A DNA stretch of 64,000 bases, taken from NCBI RefSeq assembly GCF_963675165.1, contig NC_087391.1:4266646-4330645 (forward strand), read 5' to 3'. The translations under genes were made by a program, and so were the position numbers. A model generated the notes under the pieces. That model saw only the letters and a program-made list of their open reading frames with translations, made no database searches and was not told the origin of the DNA. Of the stretch, positions 1 to 32,756 are shown in pieces; position 1 is the first letter of the stretch; every line of letters begins with the position of its first letter. This DNA comes from Halichondria panicea (taxonomy: Eukaryota; Porifera; Demospongiae; Suberitida; Halichondriidae).

Positions 1-1190
1 CGTTGTCTGCAAAACTTTTCGCCAACTAGCAAACGCTAAACTAGCGAGAACACCAACTTAAGAACACAACTACTGAGTGACAGTCCACCGTATGTTCTTA
101 TATACTGCATGACACGCTACTGGATAGGCGTGTCACACTACGCTATGGTTCTATATATAATTTTCTTGTGCTCTAGCCCCCTTTCCTATATTCTCTGCAC
201 GAATCTGCCACTATTATATACCAACTCAAAGTCATTTAAACACAGTGATAGATACACAGCTCATATACGACGGAAAGGTGACATGTATATTATTATGACA
301 TGTGACCTATATTCATATCTAAACATAAGAAACCATAGTGCAATAAGAAACATTTAAAGTACAGTCAGGTGTCTACAATTGTTCATTCACATGATCAGCA
401 ATATGTAATCAACTTGTTTTAATGTGTGCATGCACGAAGATAATACAATAATGCTAATTTTATATTCCCTTTCCTGCTAGTTGCGGTTACAATAGTGACA
501 GTAGGTCAGACAGAATGCCTTTTTTGTGTACAATATATTGGAGTTGTGTACGACCTCTTGACACGTTATATCATGATGAACATTTCTTTTGCGTTTAATT
601 TTGCTGCATGCAGAAAACTCCAAGAGTGGGTAATAATCGACCATTATTGTTTTAAAAAGCCAAAAGTCCAAGTCTAAAATTAATGCCCGGGCCATCAGCA
701 GAGCCTTGCAGCTCTCTTCTCACTCTTAATTGCACCTACCGAAAGGCAATAGCTAGCGTTCTAGTGTAGAGCTAACTATGGAACACTCCATGGACAAGTT
801 TTTCTACGCACTCTTCTGAAAAAGCTGCAATGGCATTCCAAGTAGGCATAACTCAAAAACCAAGCATTATTTGCAATCTCACGAAATTAAAATCCAAGAA
901 AACATGACTAGAATCCTATAGAAACTCCTTCATTGGTCCTTGAGCAGCTGCATGTAGCAGTCTACACACGCACACAAACAAACACACCATATATACCTCG
1001 CTTGCACATGTGCACCGAGGTATAAATATTGATGCCAACTACTGTTAAAAAGATCGACTGCTTTGTGTAAGGTAGCTATATATAGACTGTGTAAACATTG
1101 ACAGATTTTTAGAAATCCATGAAATGAGTGTTGTTTTCATAATGCATTGTGGTTTTATTAAGATGTCAACAATTCTACAGTTTGCTTCTA
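1..1190. other. Upstream region of the TPR-CHAT gene
   Basis: No convincing coding exon is seen here. The second half holds one copy of a dispersed repeat (entry 560-1023). The open frame of the first coding exon runs back to a stop at about 1140. A promoter or a 5' non-coding exon may lie here, and an acceptor-like site at 1179-1180 just before the first in-frame ATG leaves that possible. Confidence 0.5.
560..1023. repeat. Dispersed repeat, copy 1
   Basis: This stretch matches 11160-11697 over its whole length with small indels. Shared landmarks include catgatgaacatt, the run agagccttgcagctctctt, aagctgcaatggcattccaa and a terminal part ending near caccgaggtat. The end contains a short palindrome (tacctcg / cgaggta). 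No coding capacity is seen. It is probably a non-autonomous transposon or other interspersed repeat; the family is not known to me. Confidence 0.75.
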
Positions 1191-4100
1191 ATGCTGACAT
1201 CAAAAGTTGAAAATTGGAAGATTGTGACTATCGACTGTGTGGATCCTCCTGATTTAACATCTATCCAAAACATGGTACAATATCATAATACAGATACCAC
1301 ACCACAGAAAAGCTGGAAAAGTATATGTACATGTAAGCTTTATTCAACAACCAATGCAATGTGTGCGACATTATCTGGAAGAAAGGAATCAGAGGAGACA
1401 TCAAAACTCAGGGAAAGAGTCTCTGAAATAAAACAACCAGAGAAAGCTGTCAAAAGTGATGCCGAAGATGGTCAAGAACTAACCAATGGAACTATTTTCA
1501 CCGGTGCAAGCACTTCTATGTGGTTGGACGCTAGAAATATTGTACATACTTCAATTGGTAAAGGTACTACCGTGGTGAAACTTGTCACTTTGGGGCCCTC
1601 TATAATTGTTAGTGAATGTGCAAAAATTTATAACGATTTTTCAGATGAAAATAATAGAAACCGTGCTTTAAATTCCTTGAACAATGAGTTTAGTAAAGTT
1701 ACTACCGTAGTGGAACATGACAAAGATTGTGTTCAGACTGAAGACGAATGTGTCACTTTGGAACCCTGTAGTGCAAGTGCAAACACTTCTTTTTCTGTGG
1801 CTAGAAACGATTTGTCAAAAAATGATGGTAGTAACTGTGCTTCAAATTTTATACACAATAGATTTGGTGTAGATACGGTAATAGGGGAACGTGGAACAGA
1901 TTTTGTTCGTACTGAGCTTCAGTATGAGAAAGTATCTGAGGTGAAGCAGACTGCACAGATGCACAAAAGACTAGCTCTACACTCTGCTGACGTATCATCC
2001 GTTGATAATGCCTTTGAAAGTTCCTCTATCTGCCCACTCGTGAAAGAAAATGAAACAATTCGACTCGAGAATAACAAAATCAGCAAGCATTCTTACTCTT
2101 TCATTATGCACAGCAGTGATATCAAAATACTTAGTAAGGTTCATTCTCAGCAGGAAAAAGTTGCTGTCGCTGTGGCCCAAACGCCTCAAATTTTGCAAAC
2201 TGGCTTTGTACTGCCTAATAGAGCAGAAGGGAGCATTGTGTTGTCTACTTTTGCAGACGAAACATGTAACACTGGAATAATAATACCTCTTGTTGAAAAC
2301 GAAGAATCGATAAGAGCTAAAAGTACCTTATTGGAAATTCCTCAGGATGTATTGGCACCAGAATATGCTTTAACTGCAAAATTGAGGGACCCAGAATCTT
2401 CTAGCGATGAATCAGGCGTTGAAAGTAATGAAGAGTACAAAACTAAGATCAGAAGAAAGATAATTGGATATGTACCTCGGAGAAGACAGCTACTTGTATT
2501 CTACAGTCGTCGTGAAAAGAAGAGCAAAATTAAAACTAGATTCAAAATACACGAACTAAGTGATTCTGAGAATGATGATGACTTGCCTAATATATCACAA
2601 GAGAAGTCTTATAACACACAGAAAGTAAGGAGGCAACATTTGACCCTGTCCAGATACAGCCATGTAAAGCTAAGGTGTAATACATCTGGTGAGCTGGCCT
2701 ATATGGAAGCAGACTCCAGCCAAACAGAAGGCAGTAGTCTGGATTCAGCTACTGATGATGTAGTAGACAAGTCATTTCCAGAGGATGCGAAGTGCGTTTT
2801 CATTCATCACACCGCTGCTTCTACTGACACGCATTTGAGGAAAGTACAATCAGCTCGAGGTCAACTCTGTAATGTTTTGATTAAGCACAAGGGGTCAGTA
2901 GTCGGCACCCACGTTCCTCGAAGAAGGAAAAATATACGTGTACAAGAAGTGTCTTCTGCCTGCCGAGGAGTTAGGAAAATAAAACAGGCTCACAGAGTAA
3001 TTACTACTTCAGCCTCTGAAGTATCTTCTGACTACTCAAAATCTGCCATAGTTCTTGAATCATTTTCCCAACGAAACTTATTTGCTATCAAGGCATTGAA
3101 AACACCAACAAGCAACTTTGTTGGTATTCTATCACACGAGAAACTTAGTCAGTCCAACATTGGATTAGTAGACCAAACAACCACCTCTGAAACATCATCA
3201 CAAGAACAACTTTCTAGATACATCTCAGCCACAACTGTACGTACCAACTCTATGAGACTTCCTACATTGGCTGCTGCAAAAAATCCGAGTGTGAGTTCAC
3301 CACATGTACCACCTGCTATGGCGGCAGAATCTCCGGTTAAAAGTAAAGGTCAAAAAGGAAGGTCGTTGAGAGTACAAGTAGATGGTGAACGAAAGGCCTC
3401 TTTGTTGAATACTGTCACTGCAGCTTCTATTCCACAATTATGTAGTACCAGGACCAGTGAAAGGAACTCTCCTCGTGAGAATGATAGTAGCCTACAAAGA
3501 AGTATTCCTACACGGAGATCACCTGATTGGATTGCCATAGCAACTAAACTTCTTCATGTTCCCGACTATCAAAAAATGATACAGATTCTCAATGGTGTCA
3601 CACCAGCTCAAGAAGATGTTGTGGCTCACAAATTCATCAGGGGAATTGCTTACTTCAAAGTTGGCAAGTTACGACAAGCAATGGATGACCTACACGAGTG
3701 TGAGAAATTTGCTTTAGAATCCATTGAAGACGAAAGACGTGCACACTCTCAAAGGCAATTGGATAGTGGAGTATTTTCAATGCAACCTGGATCACAGGCT
3801 TCCTCCCAGGCATCAAGTTTGCAATATTTGCAACAATCATCCAAAAAAGGAGACGTTGCAGTTTGTAATGTATACATGGGAGATCTGCACTATACTTCAG
3901 GCTCCTATCTTGAGGCATCGAAATGTTATCAACGAGCGGCCGATTTGTATGACAGAGAATGTGTAGCAAGACTGTTCAGGATGGTTCCCCCCACCATATC
4001 AACAATTCACTCGAAATGTGGCAGCTGCTTACGCAATTTGTCCAAATCAATGGAGGCCATTCAAGAGTACAGAAATGCTATTGAGACAGCCATTAGAGAC

Positions 4101-7100
4101 AAAGACCGTCTGGCTGCTCACACTAGCCTTGGAAACCTCCAACAGACTCTAGGTCAGAACAAAGAAGCACTGGTAGAGTACGAACATGCCCTTGATCTAG
4201 CAGAGACACTCAATGAACACATGTCAGTTGGTTGGACTCATGGGAATATTGGAAATGCCTTCCTCGGACTGAATGAAAAAGACAAAGCACTATTTCATCT
4301 TCAAAAAGCCCTTGATATCACTATTAAGTACGAACCTAAACCAGATTCTATAGGAAGAGCATATAATAACCTAGGCACTGCCTACCAGTCAATGGGTGAC
4401 CTTGACAAAGCTGAAGAACACTATGACCTTGCTTTAAGTCAGGCTATCTACGGCAACGACCCAGCTGGACAATCCAGAGTTTATGGAAATATCGGGAACA
4501 TATATATTGTCAGGAAACGTTTTGAAAAAGCTATCCCTCACTACACCGAAGTGCTTCGCCTCTCCAAAGATGAGGCTACGATTAGCACCGCTCACCACAA
4601 CAGAGGATGTGCACTATATGAGTGGGCAGAGAGTAAAATGCTTGCTCTAGAACAATCTTTACAGAAAACTTCCTCAAGTAACGAGCCAACATTTCGATTT
4701 CACGGATCCCAAACTACACTTCCCCAAAAGCATAGTCCTCGTATTGTGATCGATAGCATTGCCAAACTCTTCAGAGATGGAATGTCAGATTTGCAAAAGG
4801 TTGCTGAAACTCACGAAGCAAAACTTGACCACATCAAAGGATCAGCCAAAGGACTTTCACTTTCAGTCTCCCTCACAGAGTCAAATTCTCGCACTTTTCA
4901 TCGCTTACAGGACTGCATGGTTGCTATAGGCAACTGGAGGGAGGCTCTTCTCATTGCTGAGCAAAGCAGAGCTCGTACGCTCGGAGAAATAATGCTTGCA
5001 CGAAAAGAAAGTCAACTTGAGAAGGCTCTTACCTCACCACTAAACCTGGAGCATGTGTACTCCATTGTGAGCTCACAAAAGTCTCCTGTTCTCTACCTCA
5101 CCCACACTGGAGCTAGTTTGTTTGGCTGGGTGCTCGTTCCAGCTGAAGACAGTGACAGCATTTCAATCGAGATGTTTGAAATTCCCATATCAGATGACCA
5201 GTTTGATGGAAAGAGCTTCGATTATCACATCAGATACGGCCTTACAGAGGTCTTGGTGGAGCAGAGCTATGAGATGTATCGCAGCATTGACTATGACGAA
5301 GAAACTACTGCTCCTGTTGCTCAACTCTTCAAGGTCATTGGTAAGCCCTTTCAAATGACTCTTGACCGACTTCTTCCAGGAAACAAAAAAGCAAAAATGC
5401 AAAAGATTGTTTTGATTACTGATACTTACACCAGTCTATTGCCATTTACTTGCATGTACGATCCAGACAGTGAAACCTTTCTTGGTGATCATTATTATTT
5501 TGAAACCATGCAATCTTTATTGACAATGGGTATAATGAATCAGCTCCCAGAACCAATGGTTGAATTACCAGCAGATCCACAAAGTATGTGCATTGTGGGA
5601 AATCCTATCATTCCCAAATTTTACCTTAATGGTGAAGTATGGTCCCTGGGGAAACTCCCTTATGCAAGACGAGAGGCTCAGTGGGTGGGGCATATCCTGA
5701 ACACTCCACCTATTCTGGACGAGCAAGCGACCAAAAGTGCTGTCGTAATGCGATTCATGAGAGCCAAAGTGATTCACATAGCAACCCACGGCAGCTCAGT
5801 CTCGGGTTTCCTAGCATTTGCCTCACTCACCTCTACCAGACAAGGGGAGGGGGTTGACTCCAGTGGAGTACTGCTGCACCCGGAGGAGGTGGAGAAGCTC
5901 TCCATCAGTCCAGCTCTTGTCGTTCTCTCCAGCTGTGACTCCTCAAGAGGTACCGTGAAGGCGGACGGTGTGCAAGGGATGGCAAGAGCATTTTTGTTGG
6001 CAGGTATGTATACTATGATGTACTTACGGTATAAGTATAATACGTAAACCATTAAATGTATGCTAGAGTAGGTATATGTAATTGAGTACATAAAGAGGAG
6101 TATCCAATTCCCACGCACATTCCATTCTACATCTTGGACTAAATCCCGTCACTAACACTTGTAGTTGAGTAAACTGTTAGCCATGAATAAAATTAAATGT
6201 GGGCTGAAGGTACAAACCACATGTGTGTGTGCTGATATCTTATTTTAACCACGACACCTACGCACCACTTAAGATGAGGTCTGATAGTGGCGTGGTATGA
6301 CATACTCGTACCCTAACTTGGTTTACACTACAACTGCTACAGTTGGATACTCCTCTTTATGTACTCCTGGTATATGTAATTAAAGGCTGCTACTAAATTA
6401 AGTTGTTTTTCTGCAGGTGCACAAGCTGTGCTCACCGCTCTGTGGAGGGTGCCTGACGAATCTGCAGCTGTGTTCATGCGTTTCTTTTACCGGTTCCTTG
6501 AAAATGGGTTTGAGAGCTCCCTCTCACTTCAGAAGGCAATCCTCAGTTTGAGATGCTTCTCCAAGTACTCACAGTACATACATTGGTCCGGTTACCAGCT
6601 AACAGGGAGATCCATTCGTTTGGACATGAAGCCGTCTCCAGTGACGACTATGTTAGAGAGCACCCTGAGGCCAAGCTCTCCGTTTCCCCGGCTCATGCTA
6701 GTCAAGAAGCTAGAAAGTGTGTTGGTGGATAATCCAAGACTACCCACTGATATTCAGGTTCGTAATTGCCAATCACTCTCAGGCTAATTACTTCAGTGGT
6801 TCATGAGCCAGATCTCACCCTAGTATACTAAACAAGCTTGCATGTGTGGTATAATTATACTTATGATAGATAAAACAACTGTTTGGACAGCAATGTTATT
6901 GTTATTGTCAACTGTTTAGTCACTGTTTGCTTTCAATACAACAAACAAACTTGCATGTGTGGTGTATACTAAGTATTAATTGTGACGGATAAAACAACTG
7001 TTTGCACAGCAATGTTACAACTTTTTAGTCACTGTTTGCTCAATACGAAATAATTATACCGTACTAAAAATTAATTATGAATATTGGTTGAATGTAACCA

Positions 7101-9020
7101 GATTCTTCATGGATCTCCTGGAGTGAAGCCATCTGAAATTGCCATTGACTTCATTCACTCTTGCCACGCTAAATTTGCAGCTGGAATTTTCTGGATCAGC
7201 TGTCGCACACCAGACATCATTGATGCCAGTCTGAAAAGCATTGAGAAAGTGAGTGAATTGACAATCACTGTGTTACCACACCCAATTTCAAGCTTTAAAG
7301 TCACTGTGTGAAGTGATGGTATAAAAAAAAAAGTGGGAGGTGGCTTAATCGACAAGTTGTGACTGACAGACAAGCATCGCTAATATGATGCCGCTGAATA
7401 GCATAATCGTTAGAAACAGATTGCTTATATAAACACAAGTTCTTAAGTTTGTATACAGTTCGTGGACATACGTTGATAAGTACAGGGAATTTTGAAGATT
7501 GAAGTGACTTACAAAGTGTTCTGTGAAGTGACGAGTTTAATATAATTATTTTTATAGACGAAGTAGGTAGGTCTAGGTTAATATGTGGAAAGCGCAGAGA
7601 TTCCAAAGCCTTACTACGTGGCTGAAATAGAAGTGACAGATGGTATTGTAGGCAGGAGTAAACGTTTAGGGGGGGGGCTTTACGCGCGGTAGCGCGCCGC
7701 AAATTTGCCTGCTTTGTTGACTTCACCGTTATATCACTGTATTACAGTCTATAGATAGAGTCTACTTTCTCTTAATGGTTACAGGTTGCATGCACGTATA
7801 TATAGTTGGGTTAATAAATGTATTGCATGCAGACAATTGACAAGCCTCTGAACAAGCTGCGACTTAGTGACACACAGCAAGCATTGGTGGTCCTGGACAA
7901 TGCAATCGAACTGCCAAACTCGGGAAAACTGATCAGCTTCCTAAAGCACACGAACGTTCACATCATCATTCTGTCAAAGTCAGCAGATCCCATCGACTCT
8001 TTCGTAAAAGAAGTTGATAAAGCCTTGATCAGAGGTTGCAGTATACACGAAGTGAAAACACTCTCAACAATTGACTCCACCCAGCGAATCGTGTACGAAA
8101 TCTCCAAGCAGTACTATCTAAAAGCAAACAACAATGATCAAGCAATCTTTGAGAAGTTGGCTGAGTTTACATCCGGCTCACCCCTAATTGTTGACATAGC
8201 CGCACAAGTTCTGCTCAAGTATGTGCAAGAGAATTCTGACGAACCTTCTGAAGGTCTAAACCAATTTGCCGATTCCATTCAGCTTTCAAAATCTCGGAAA
8301 GTTATCCATAAATCTCCTCCATTGGCAAGTTCTCTTCAAGGAGTCGAGGACACATGTTTTCAAGTGAGGGAAATTTCAGATGCATTCACACGCCTTGTTC
8401 CAAACGTCGCCAGTGTCTCGCCGAATCACACAGATGTGTGGGAGTCAGAGAGTGAGTACGACTCTTGGGACTCGATCGGAGCCTTAATCCAACGTTGCGT
8501 ATCCACTCCAGGAGAAATGTTGCTGCTTCAAGCCCTGTCCATTTTTGGTTGTATACCAATTCCAATTCCTTTGGTCACTACCATGTCCTCCCTGATAGCT
8601 CAGTCATCAGGTCACTCACACTTGGGTGGTATCTTGCACGAGCGACTAATGGAGGCAAAGTTGATATTAAGGTATCCCCAGCCAGTTGTTCTTCATTCTA
8701 CTTACACTAAAAGTGACAAAGCCAGTGAAGAGCCACTCTTCTTGTACCTTCCTCAGCACTTGGCTAGTCAGCTGTGGCTATGTAATGACATCGATCAAGT
8801 AATGGCTGTAACAGTTGCATACAAAGCATTGCAAAAAGTTATCGACGAAAATTCAGCAAAAAATCCAGAGCTCTTACATTTTTATCTCGGGCTCATCCCA
8901 CCTCTTGAGGAAAAAACTGCACTACTAGCTGTTGAAAAGAAGCATTGCTATGAGGCAGTGTACGAGTTATACCTGCAGCTGTCACATCAACTCAGCTCCA
9001 ATAATCACACCCACATCTGA
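1191..9020 (+). CDS. TPR-CHAT protein with C-terminal NB-ARC-like domain (TTC28-like)
   Basis: Exons 1191-6003, 6417-6757, 7102-7248 and 7833-9020 join in phase to give 2,162 residues. The start is the first in-frame ATG; an upstream exon is possible. Residues 1-770 are polar and probably disordered. Tetratricopeptide repeats span about 778-1143. A CHAT domain (caspase-like HetF/TPR-associated protease fold) spans about 1295-1690, with the expected dyad His1533 in HIATHGSS and Cys1582 in VLSSCDSS, followed by the family-typical LLAGAQAVLTALWRVPDES across the first intron. Exons 3-4 resemble an NB-ARC/STAND NTPase: GSPGVKPS at the Walker A position (1722-1729), ALVVLDNA at Walker B, HIIILSKS, and a GSPL motif. 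The intact dyad argues for a protease switched by its TPRs. The Walker A lysine is displaced, so nucleotide binding is doubtful. TTC28 is the nearest vertebrate family for the TPR-CHAT part. Confidence 0.85.
6071..6381. mobile_element. MITE in intron 1 of the TPR-CHAT gene
   Basis: Two 24-bp inverted repeats, 6084-6107 and 6343-6366, are perfect reverse complements (starting gagtacataaagagg). They are flanked by a 13-bp direct repeat, ggtatatgtaatt, at 6071-6083 and 6369-6381. There is no coding content. This is the structure of a non-autonomous DNA transposon; the superfamily is undetermined. Confidence 0.75.
6831..7050. repeat. Two-copy direct duplication in intron 2
   Basis: Two successive copies of about 110 bp share cttgcatgtgtggt, gataaaacaactgtttg, acagcaatgtta and tagtcactgtttgct. 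It is a local tandem duplication inside the TPR-CHAT intron and has no coding content. Confidence 0.7.
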
Positions 9021-32060: not shown

Positions 32061-32756
32061 GTGTATCCTGAAATCCTACGACAAACGACGTTAGATAGAA
32101 TTCGTCGTGAGATTCGCACCATGGCTCAGATTCGTCATCCCAACCTTGTCCTCTTTGTTGCTGCTGTCCTCAATGAGCAAATAGGTCCGATGATCGTCAC
32201 AGAACTCCTGGATACGTCTCTACGTTCTGCCTACCAGGACAATCGTATTGGTCCCAACAAACGAAGGATCTTTGGAGACATCTCCTCAGCTCTGGTTTAT
32301 CTCCACCGACAGAGGGAACCCATCATCCACAGAGATGTGAGCTCTGCTAATGTCCTCCTTCTCTCTTTACCCAACAACAAATGGCTTGCCAAACTCTCTG
32401 ACTTTGGATCAGCCAACCTAGCTCGAGATGCCACTACTCCTGGAGAAGGTGCTATCCTGTACACTGCCCCTGAGGCCTTTCCTCAAGCTCCGCATTCACC
32501 TCAACCACAACCACAACAGACGACAAAGATCGATGTGTACAGTTTTGGGGTGCTTGCTTGTGAAGTGGTGGCTCAAACGTTTCCAAAATCTGAACTTTTT
32601 CTTCGTCTGCTATCGAGAATGGAAGGTGTATGGCCAGAGTTCCACCCACTCATCACCTCCTGCGTCTCTCACTTCCTTCAGGACAGACCCTCCATGCATG
32701 GACACTGTGCTACAGACTATCAAACGATTGGGCTGGGAGCCTTAGGACATTAATTT
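32061..32756 (+). pseudogene. TKL kinase domain downstream of the in-frame stop
   Basis: The frame continues without interruption after the TGA for about 230 codons and carries the rest of a kinase domain: IIHRDVSSANVLLL (catalytic loop), LSDFGSANLA (DFG), YTAPEAF (APE) and DVYSFGVLA. All catalytic landmarks are kept, so decay is recent. Near 32695 the reading frame of the expected C-terminus (TVLQTIKRLGWEP) lies in another frame after ATGC-ATGG, which looks like a 4-bp duplication. The domain can be translated with the NHR part only if the stop is bypassed or is an allele or assembly error. Confidence 0.75.

Follow-up and report, generated by a model that had tools for sequence, protein, structure and literature searches.

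A candidate TPR-CHAT protease with a degenerate NB-ARC-like C-terminal module in the sponge Halichondria panicea

A 64,000-nucleotide stretch of the 131 Mb genome of the sponge Halichondria panicea (C15:4266646-4330645, NC_087391.1; the whole stretch is referred to below as the window) contains, at positions 1191-9020 of the plus strand, four exons that join into a gene of 2162 codons plus stop, without an internal stop. The predicted protein combines TPRs, a CHAT domain with both catalytic residues and a C-terminal module that resembles NB-ARC domains by profile comparison and has lost key nucleotide-binding residues. The explanation that we favour, with confidence slightly better than even, is a single-chain TPR-CHAT protease of the bacterial (cyanobacterial-like) active type to which a degenerate NB-ARC domain is attached at the C-terminus. 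As judged from sequence, this would be a new variant of TPR-CHAT protease, bearing a pseudo-NB-ARC tail and apparently present in an animal in four copies.

Matches to wnt genes, which are not known outside animals, lie on three contigs of this genome. The genome also contains ten CHAT matches, which we assign to six genes: single ones on C5 and C8, and four on C15, each of the latter with CHAT in two exons. Those on C15 comprise the window copy, two close copies (L022 and L023) and a diverged copy on the opposite strand, denoted D; in D, identity amounts to 51-56% for CHAT and 28-32% for exon 4.

The TPR-CHAT part and its relatives

The TPRs and the CHAT domain recognized in the initial annotation were both recovered by profile search. 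Several Pfam TPR families match over cut-off in the region that, together with the linker to CHAT, occupies 3504-5060 (amino acids 772-1290), and PF12770 exceeds its cut-off twice, in exon 1 (5313-6003, E 8.9e-26) and, at model positions 219-288, in exon 2 (E 3.1e-11). The catalytic residues lie exactly where they had been placed, namely, His1533 (5787-5789) in the motif IATHGS and Cys1582 (5934-5936) in LSSCDS, and both are invariant in an alignment that comprises the window protein, a paralogue and five cyanobacterial CHAT proteins. The profile match over cut-off and the His-Cys dyad in its expected context place the protein in the CHAT class, as a predicted protease. PADLOC yielded no matches for the CHAT part of exon 1 or for exon 4.

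A search with the CHAT region retrieved 157 plasmid records, and the best among the matches listed is cyanobacterial (27.6% identity). Because a 12-row CHAT tree did not resolve the placement (long branches, with rows L059 and L061 badly sliced), pairwise scores were used instead: the window CHAT scores 107-160 bits against seven cyanobacterial proteins, 72 against the C8 gene and 53 against the C5 gene.

These scores bear on the best placed of the alternatives, which we nevertheless consider improbable, that the gene product is a TTC28-type housekeeping protein, i.e. a TPR-CHAT cytokinesis scaffold rather than a receptor. Animal TPR-CHAT proteins have been tied to TTC28, most non-anthozoan species having 1-2 copies (PMC12314368), the TPRs are highly conserved across three of the sponge copies, and a faster divergence of TTC28 could depress its score in the comparison above. 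However, the genome contains a better candidate. The C8 gene (L025:1270-5937) encodes an extended TPR array, in keeping with TTC28 given the 25-unit protein referred to in PMC12314368, and in its CHAT domain the standard His and Cys motifs were not found; the respective sites read FASHVSW and VVSGAHK, so that the histidine stays and the cysteine is gone. The C8 gene is a probable TTC28 orthologue without the catalytic cysteine, and the window gene, compared with this candidate from its own genome, probably is not a TTC28 orthologue. The C-terminal module was not found at C8 either, in frames of at least 70 amino acids. The possibility that the module is an ordinary TTC28 tail was rejected: the probability (Prob) there did not exceed 0.44 for NB-ARC and 0.43 for the module, among 18 plus-strand frames of at least 70 amino acids downstream of the C8 CHAT exon and the last 400 amino acids of the CHAT frame, a set in which shorter exons could be missed.

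The C5 gene (L024:5460-7322, minus strand) represents a third type of CHAT (E 2.1e-45, motifs STHGF and LSTCVSS), and no TPR was found in its frame.

The C-terminal module and its nucleotide-binding motifs

The initial annotation had placed an NB-ARC-like module after CHAT, and profile comparison bears this out. An alignment of the four copies of the module, which the program treats as two sequences, was set against an NB-ARC profile in hhalign. Of the 13 sequences in this profile, one comes from the same genome and the other 12 from the 26 plasmid records that it retrieved. The comparison gave Prob 96.9, E 1.5e-10 and a score of 82.0. By comparison, the maximum over 200 column shuffles of the module was Prob 2.34 and score 25.2, and the other controls remained at 0.1 (reversed alignment), 0.13 (a Roc-like GTPase family) and 0.05 and 0.06 (the TPR-CHAT part of the same proteins). 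As single sequences, the modules of the window copy and of D reached 93.4 and 82.5, respectively. The match is carried by the nucleotide-binding domain (NBD) half, which alone gives 96.85; a possible, weak winged-helix region (8511-8777) was aligned to NB-ARC, and this half alone gives 4.14. The domain is spread over exons 2, 3 and 4, which once joined align as a single NB-ARC. In an independent library, NCBIfam, residues 9-330 of the module match NF040586 (FxSxx-COOH system TPR protein) with E 2.5e-6, albeit at 26 bits, far under the full-length cut-off of 300 bits for this model; we take this family to start with an NB-ARC domain. No relative was confirmed when GTDB and IMG/VR were scanned with exon 4, or when IMG/VR was scanned with CHAT.

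Alignment with the NB-ARC references revised the original reading of the motifs in part. Walker B (ALVVLDN, 7881-7901) and the proline of the GxP motif (TSGSPL, 8169-8186) are kept as had been read, but the sensor-1-like strand (VHIIILSKS, 7956-7982) has lost its arginine, and exon 3 contains, in the expected place, a P-loop that had not been listed, in the degenerate form GSPGVKPSE (7111-7137), with GKT replaced by KPS. Walker A reads G-x-x-G-x-KPS in both the window copy and D, compared to GK[ST] in 13 of the 13 reference domains, and the P-loop letters of L022 and L023 are the same as in the window copy, so that KPS is found in all four copies. The sensor-1 position shows the same pattern, with TSR or TTR in all 13 references and LSKS or LSHT in the window copy and D. 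Since both diverged lineages share the Walker A change, it probably predates their split. From general knowledge of P-loop NTPases, the module is likely to bind ATP weakly, if at all, and it is probably a pseudo-NB-ARC with a structural rather than an ATP-driven role.

The initial annotation had linked the module to STAND NTPases as oligomerizing switches. The corresponding alternative, in which a functional STAND NTPase controls the protease through ATP-dependent oligomerization, draws on the NB-ARC match, the retained Walker B and GxP, and the coexistence of STAND and CHAT in one chain in fungi (PMC10197012). Given that the Walker A lysine and the sensor-1 arginine, retained in every reference, are replaced in both lineages, and that the winged-helix half hardly matches, we consider such a switch quite unlikely.

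Gene model, paralogues and selection

The layout of exons and introns was reproduced as originally drawn, with GT-AG introns at 6004-6416, 6758-7101 and 7249-7832. Exon 1 (1191-6003, an open frame of 1634 codons) encodes a unique N-terminal region (amino acids 1-400), a linker, the TPRs and most of CHAT; exon 2 (6417-6757) the end of CHAT and the linker to the C-terminal module; exon 3 (7102-7248), identical in length and phase in all four copies, the degenerate P-loop and the following strand; and exon 4 (7833-9020) the remainder of the NBD, the possible winged-helix part and the stop codon. Intron 1 is supported by the CHAT match, which runs on from exon 1 (model positions 3-224) into exon 2 (219-288). 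The in-frame codon scores are 0.225 and 0.188 for exons 3 and 4, compared to -0.134, -0.116 and -0.005 for the three introns. We are unsure of the start and the N-terminal part of the model: although 1191-2390 is open beyond chance expectation (0 of 2000 Markov simulations stay open), it has a low codon score (0.085), and a different frame outscores that of the gene in 2391-3035 (0.124 vs 0.091). A second match to amino acids 1-400 was not found in the genome.

Because the DNA of introns and flanks is almost as similar among the close copies as that of exons (0.92-0.98 identity in introns vs 0.97-0.99 in exons, and 0.99 in the 3' flank of L023), the argument for the gene model leans on indels and on the ratios of nonsynonymous to synonymous substitution rates (dN/dS). 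Exons 2-4 of the window copy have no indels relative to L022 and L023, whereas each of the three introns does. The dN/dS values of the window copy against L022 and L023, respectively, are 0.14 and 0.05 for the TPRs, 0.04 and 0.05 for CHAT (amino acids 1291-1690), 0.13 and 0.15 for the NBD (9 and 8 synonymous, 4 and 4 nonsynonymous changes) and 0.17 and 0.38 for the tail (15 and 7 synonymous, 9 and 9 nonsynonymous). These values support purifying selection relative to two close copies, with few changes counted, and suggest that exons 3-4 are coding and under constraint, the tail least so.

The same comparison makes it quite improbable that the NB-ARC part is a decaying relic, functionless and on its way to loss. 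The lost motifs, and a tail that evolves faster than CHAT, would fit such decay; however, exons 2-4 of the window copy contain no stop or indel relative to two copies, the region is open in the fourth, conserved blocks are shared by the diverged copies, and dN/dS remains below 1. Furthermore, D keeps the TPR-CHAT-module order and the dyad and shares the last three introns, phases included (all introns of D are GT-AG, and two extra introns further upstream are missing in the window copy), and exons 3-4 thus appear to be part of the same gene as TPR-CHAT. That exons 3-4, or exon 4 alone, form a separate gene is highly improbable, even though an open frame (7818-9020) starts with ATG codons ahead of the exon-4 acceptor and is retained in L022 and L023, considering that the domain is split over exons 2-4, that D has matching introns and phases, and that its open frame has no ATG before the acceptor, the sole ATG lying about ten codons inside the exon.

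The N-termini of the close copies are variable. From amino acid 760 onward, the DNA of the window copy and the two close copies is 96-99% identical, whereas toward the N-terminus identity drops to 0.73-0.82 (amino acids 601-780), 0.46-0.64 (421-600) and 0.34-0.44, a noise level, over most of 61-420. In L022 and L023, a Roc/G-alpha-like GTPase (L022:1349-2700 and L023:1406-2700; Pfam matches under cut-offs) occupies one open frame with TPR-CHAT; no Roc-like GTPase was found for the window copy in the window itself and the 9.6 kb preceding it. Module exchange or gene conversion is likely. Along exon 1, divergence from the paralogues falls abruptly at about 2390-3530 (synonymous divergence, dS, from 1.2 to 0.07), as after gene conversion or recombination. 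Between L022 and L023, dN/dS is 0.88 in the first 580 codons (16 nonsynonymous and 5 synonymous changes) compared to 0.06 for TPR-CHAT. The L022 GTPase has no ATG before its P-loop, which makes a further upstream exon likely. The Roc-like GTPase family has 123 matches in the genome, some with two per gene and many clustered, and two members, L035 and L037, contain a COR-A-like region (under cut-off) of the Roco type.

Elsewhere in the window, a Transposase_21 (tnp2) frame (E 1.4e-17, L027:9145-9681/window 1-36) ends at position 36, about 1.2 kb before the gene start, and an open frame at 32061-32750 encodes a protein kinase domain (E 2.1e-23), the first 41 model positions of which are missing or in another exon.

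Possible function and comparison with known systems

The original premise that bacterial TPR-CHAT proteases are switched by a bound partner agrees with the literature: when the partner complex binds non-self target RNA, the distance between His and Cys shrinks from ~7 to ~3 Å (PMC9729208). In a fungus, a TPR-bearing CHAT protease activates a gasdermin (PMC12881547). By analogy with these two cases, the TPRs of the window protein would sense and its CHAT domain would cut, and a one-chain sensor-protease is plausible. In the mechanism that we propose, the TPR solenoid would bind a partner, as in bacterial TPR-CHAT, and this binding would rearrange and activate the CHAT protease; the pseudo-NB-ARC, no longer cycling on ATP, might play a structural role, such as self-assembly or keeping the protease inactive, and the cleaved substrate would set off a defence or cell-death response.

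Several observations weigh against this interpretation. The TPRs are near-invariant (amino acid identity of 0.96-1.0 across 760-1359 between the window copy and the two close copies), a pattern hardly suggestive of diversifying ligand recognition. A genome search for gasdermin gave no match, but its controls also stayed silent, so that absence does not follow. Pfam and PDB sequence searches did not find NB-ARC in the C-terminal module, returning only chance-level matches. Finally, a NACHT sequence also matches our home-made NB-ARC profile, at 96.2, so that this match by itself cannot tell the two families apart. Nevertheless, the module scores 0.28 against a 16-sequence NACHT profile, although the mutual match of the NB-ARC and NACHT profiles reaches 97.5; by profile, the module thus appears to prefer NB-ARC. 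In addition, its Walker B, LVVLDN, departs from the NACHT form hhhhD[GAS]hDE (PMC12258605).

A more specific reading, which we put forward as tentative and rather doubtful, is that of an immune or cell-death receptor in which a sensor, an assembly platform and a caspase-like protease would share one chain, with NB-ARC as a nucleotide-independent pseudo-switch. The TPR-CHAT-pseudoNB-ARC core would be constant and its N-terminal modules exchangeable, two copies having the Roc-like GTPase and another the unique region. An immune role is favoured by the intact dyad, the local duplication, the variable N-termini and the NACHT-rich genome, in which at least 102 NACHT matches, counted exon by exon, include many in arrays on C7, C13 and C14; NB-ARC, counted in the same way, has at least 6. 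If correct, this would amount to an animal caspase-type pathway that needs neither a separate caspase nor an adaptor. Some corals possess hundreds of TPR-CHAT genes, and the roles of the TPR and CHAT domains of the human homologue are poorly understood (PMC12314368). A small set of four genes in which the dyad is intact and an additional domain is conserved provides a tractable case for asking whether CHAT proteases act in defence or cell death in animals, as they do in bacteria and fungi, and the conserved pseudo-NB-ARC offers a test of how far the STAND platform works without nucleotide cycling.

Among animals, the TPR-CHAT order is shared with TTC28/TPRBK and the coral expansions. The coral copies, compared by description only, are presented as TPR followed by CHAT, and the available text does not mention an NB-ARC-like tail; the TPR-CHAT-NB-ARC order in an animal was not found in the excerpts of the open-licence literature searched.

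In bacteria, the cyanobacterial relatives from plasmids and GTDB, as well as Csx29 of Craspase, likewise consist of TPRs followed by CHAT with the His-Cys dyad, and the aligned cyanobacterial CHAT regions are 24-29% identical to that of the window protein. Horizontal transfer of the gene is possible. Among the best 80 of at least 390 confirmed GTDB loci, the Cys motif is present in 75 (5 were not measured); two frames ran off the contig, and all 73 closed frames end 91-107 residues past the motif, whereas the window protein runs on for 584 residues. Since these 73 proteins stop soon after CHAT, leaving no space for a C-terminal module, the module is foreign to the layout of those relatives.

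In fungi, NLRs or NLR-like proteins that carry CHAT have been reported in dozens (PMC10197012); these also combine CHAT and STAND in one chain. The order differs: in fungal NLRs, the protease is the N-terminal signalling module (PMC12881547), whereas in the window protein TPR-CHAT comes first and the degenerate NB-ARC-like part last. Nor does this arrangement (TPR, CHAT, NB-ARC-like) follow the tripartite layout of NLRs, with a central NTPase and C-terminal repeats. With NB-ARC proteins in general (AfsR-like and TPR proteins of the reference set, NF040586 and plant NLRs), the module has in common the NBD match, Walker B and GxP; it differs in the loss of the Walker A lysine and the sensor-1 arginine and in its location at the C-terminus.

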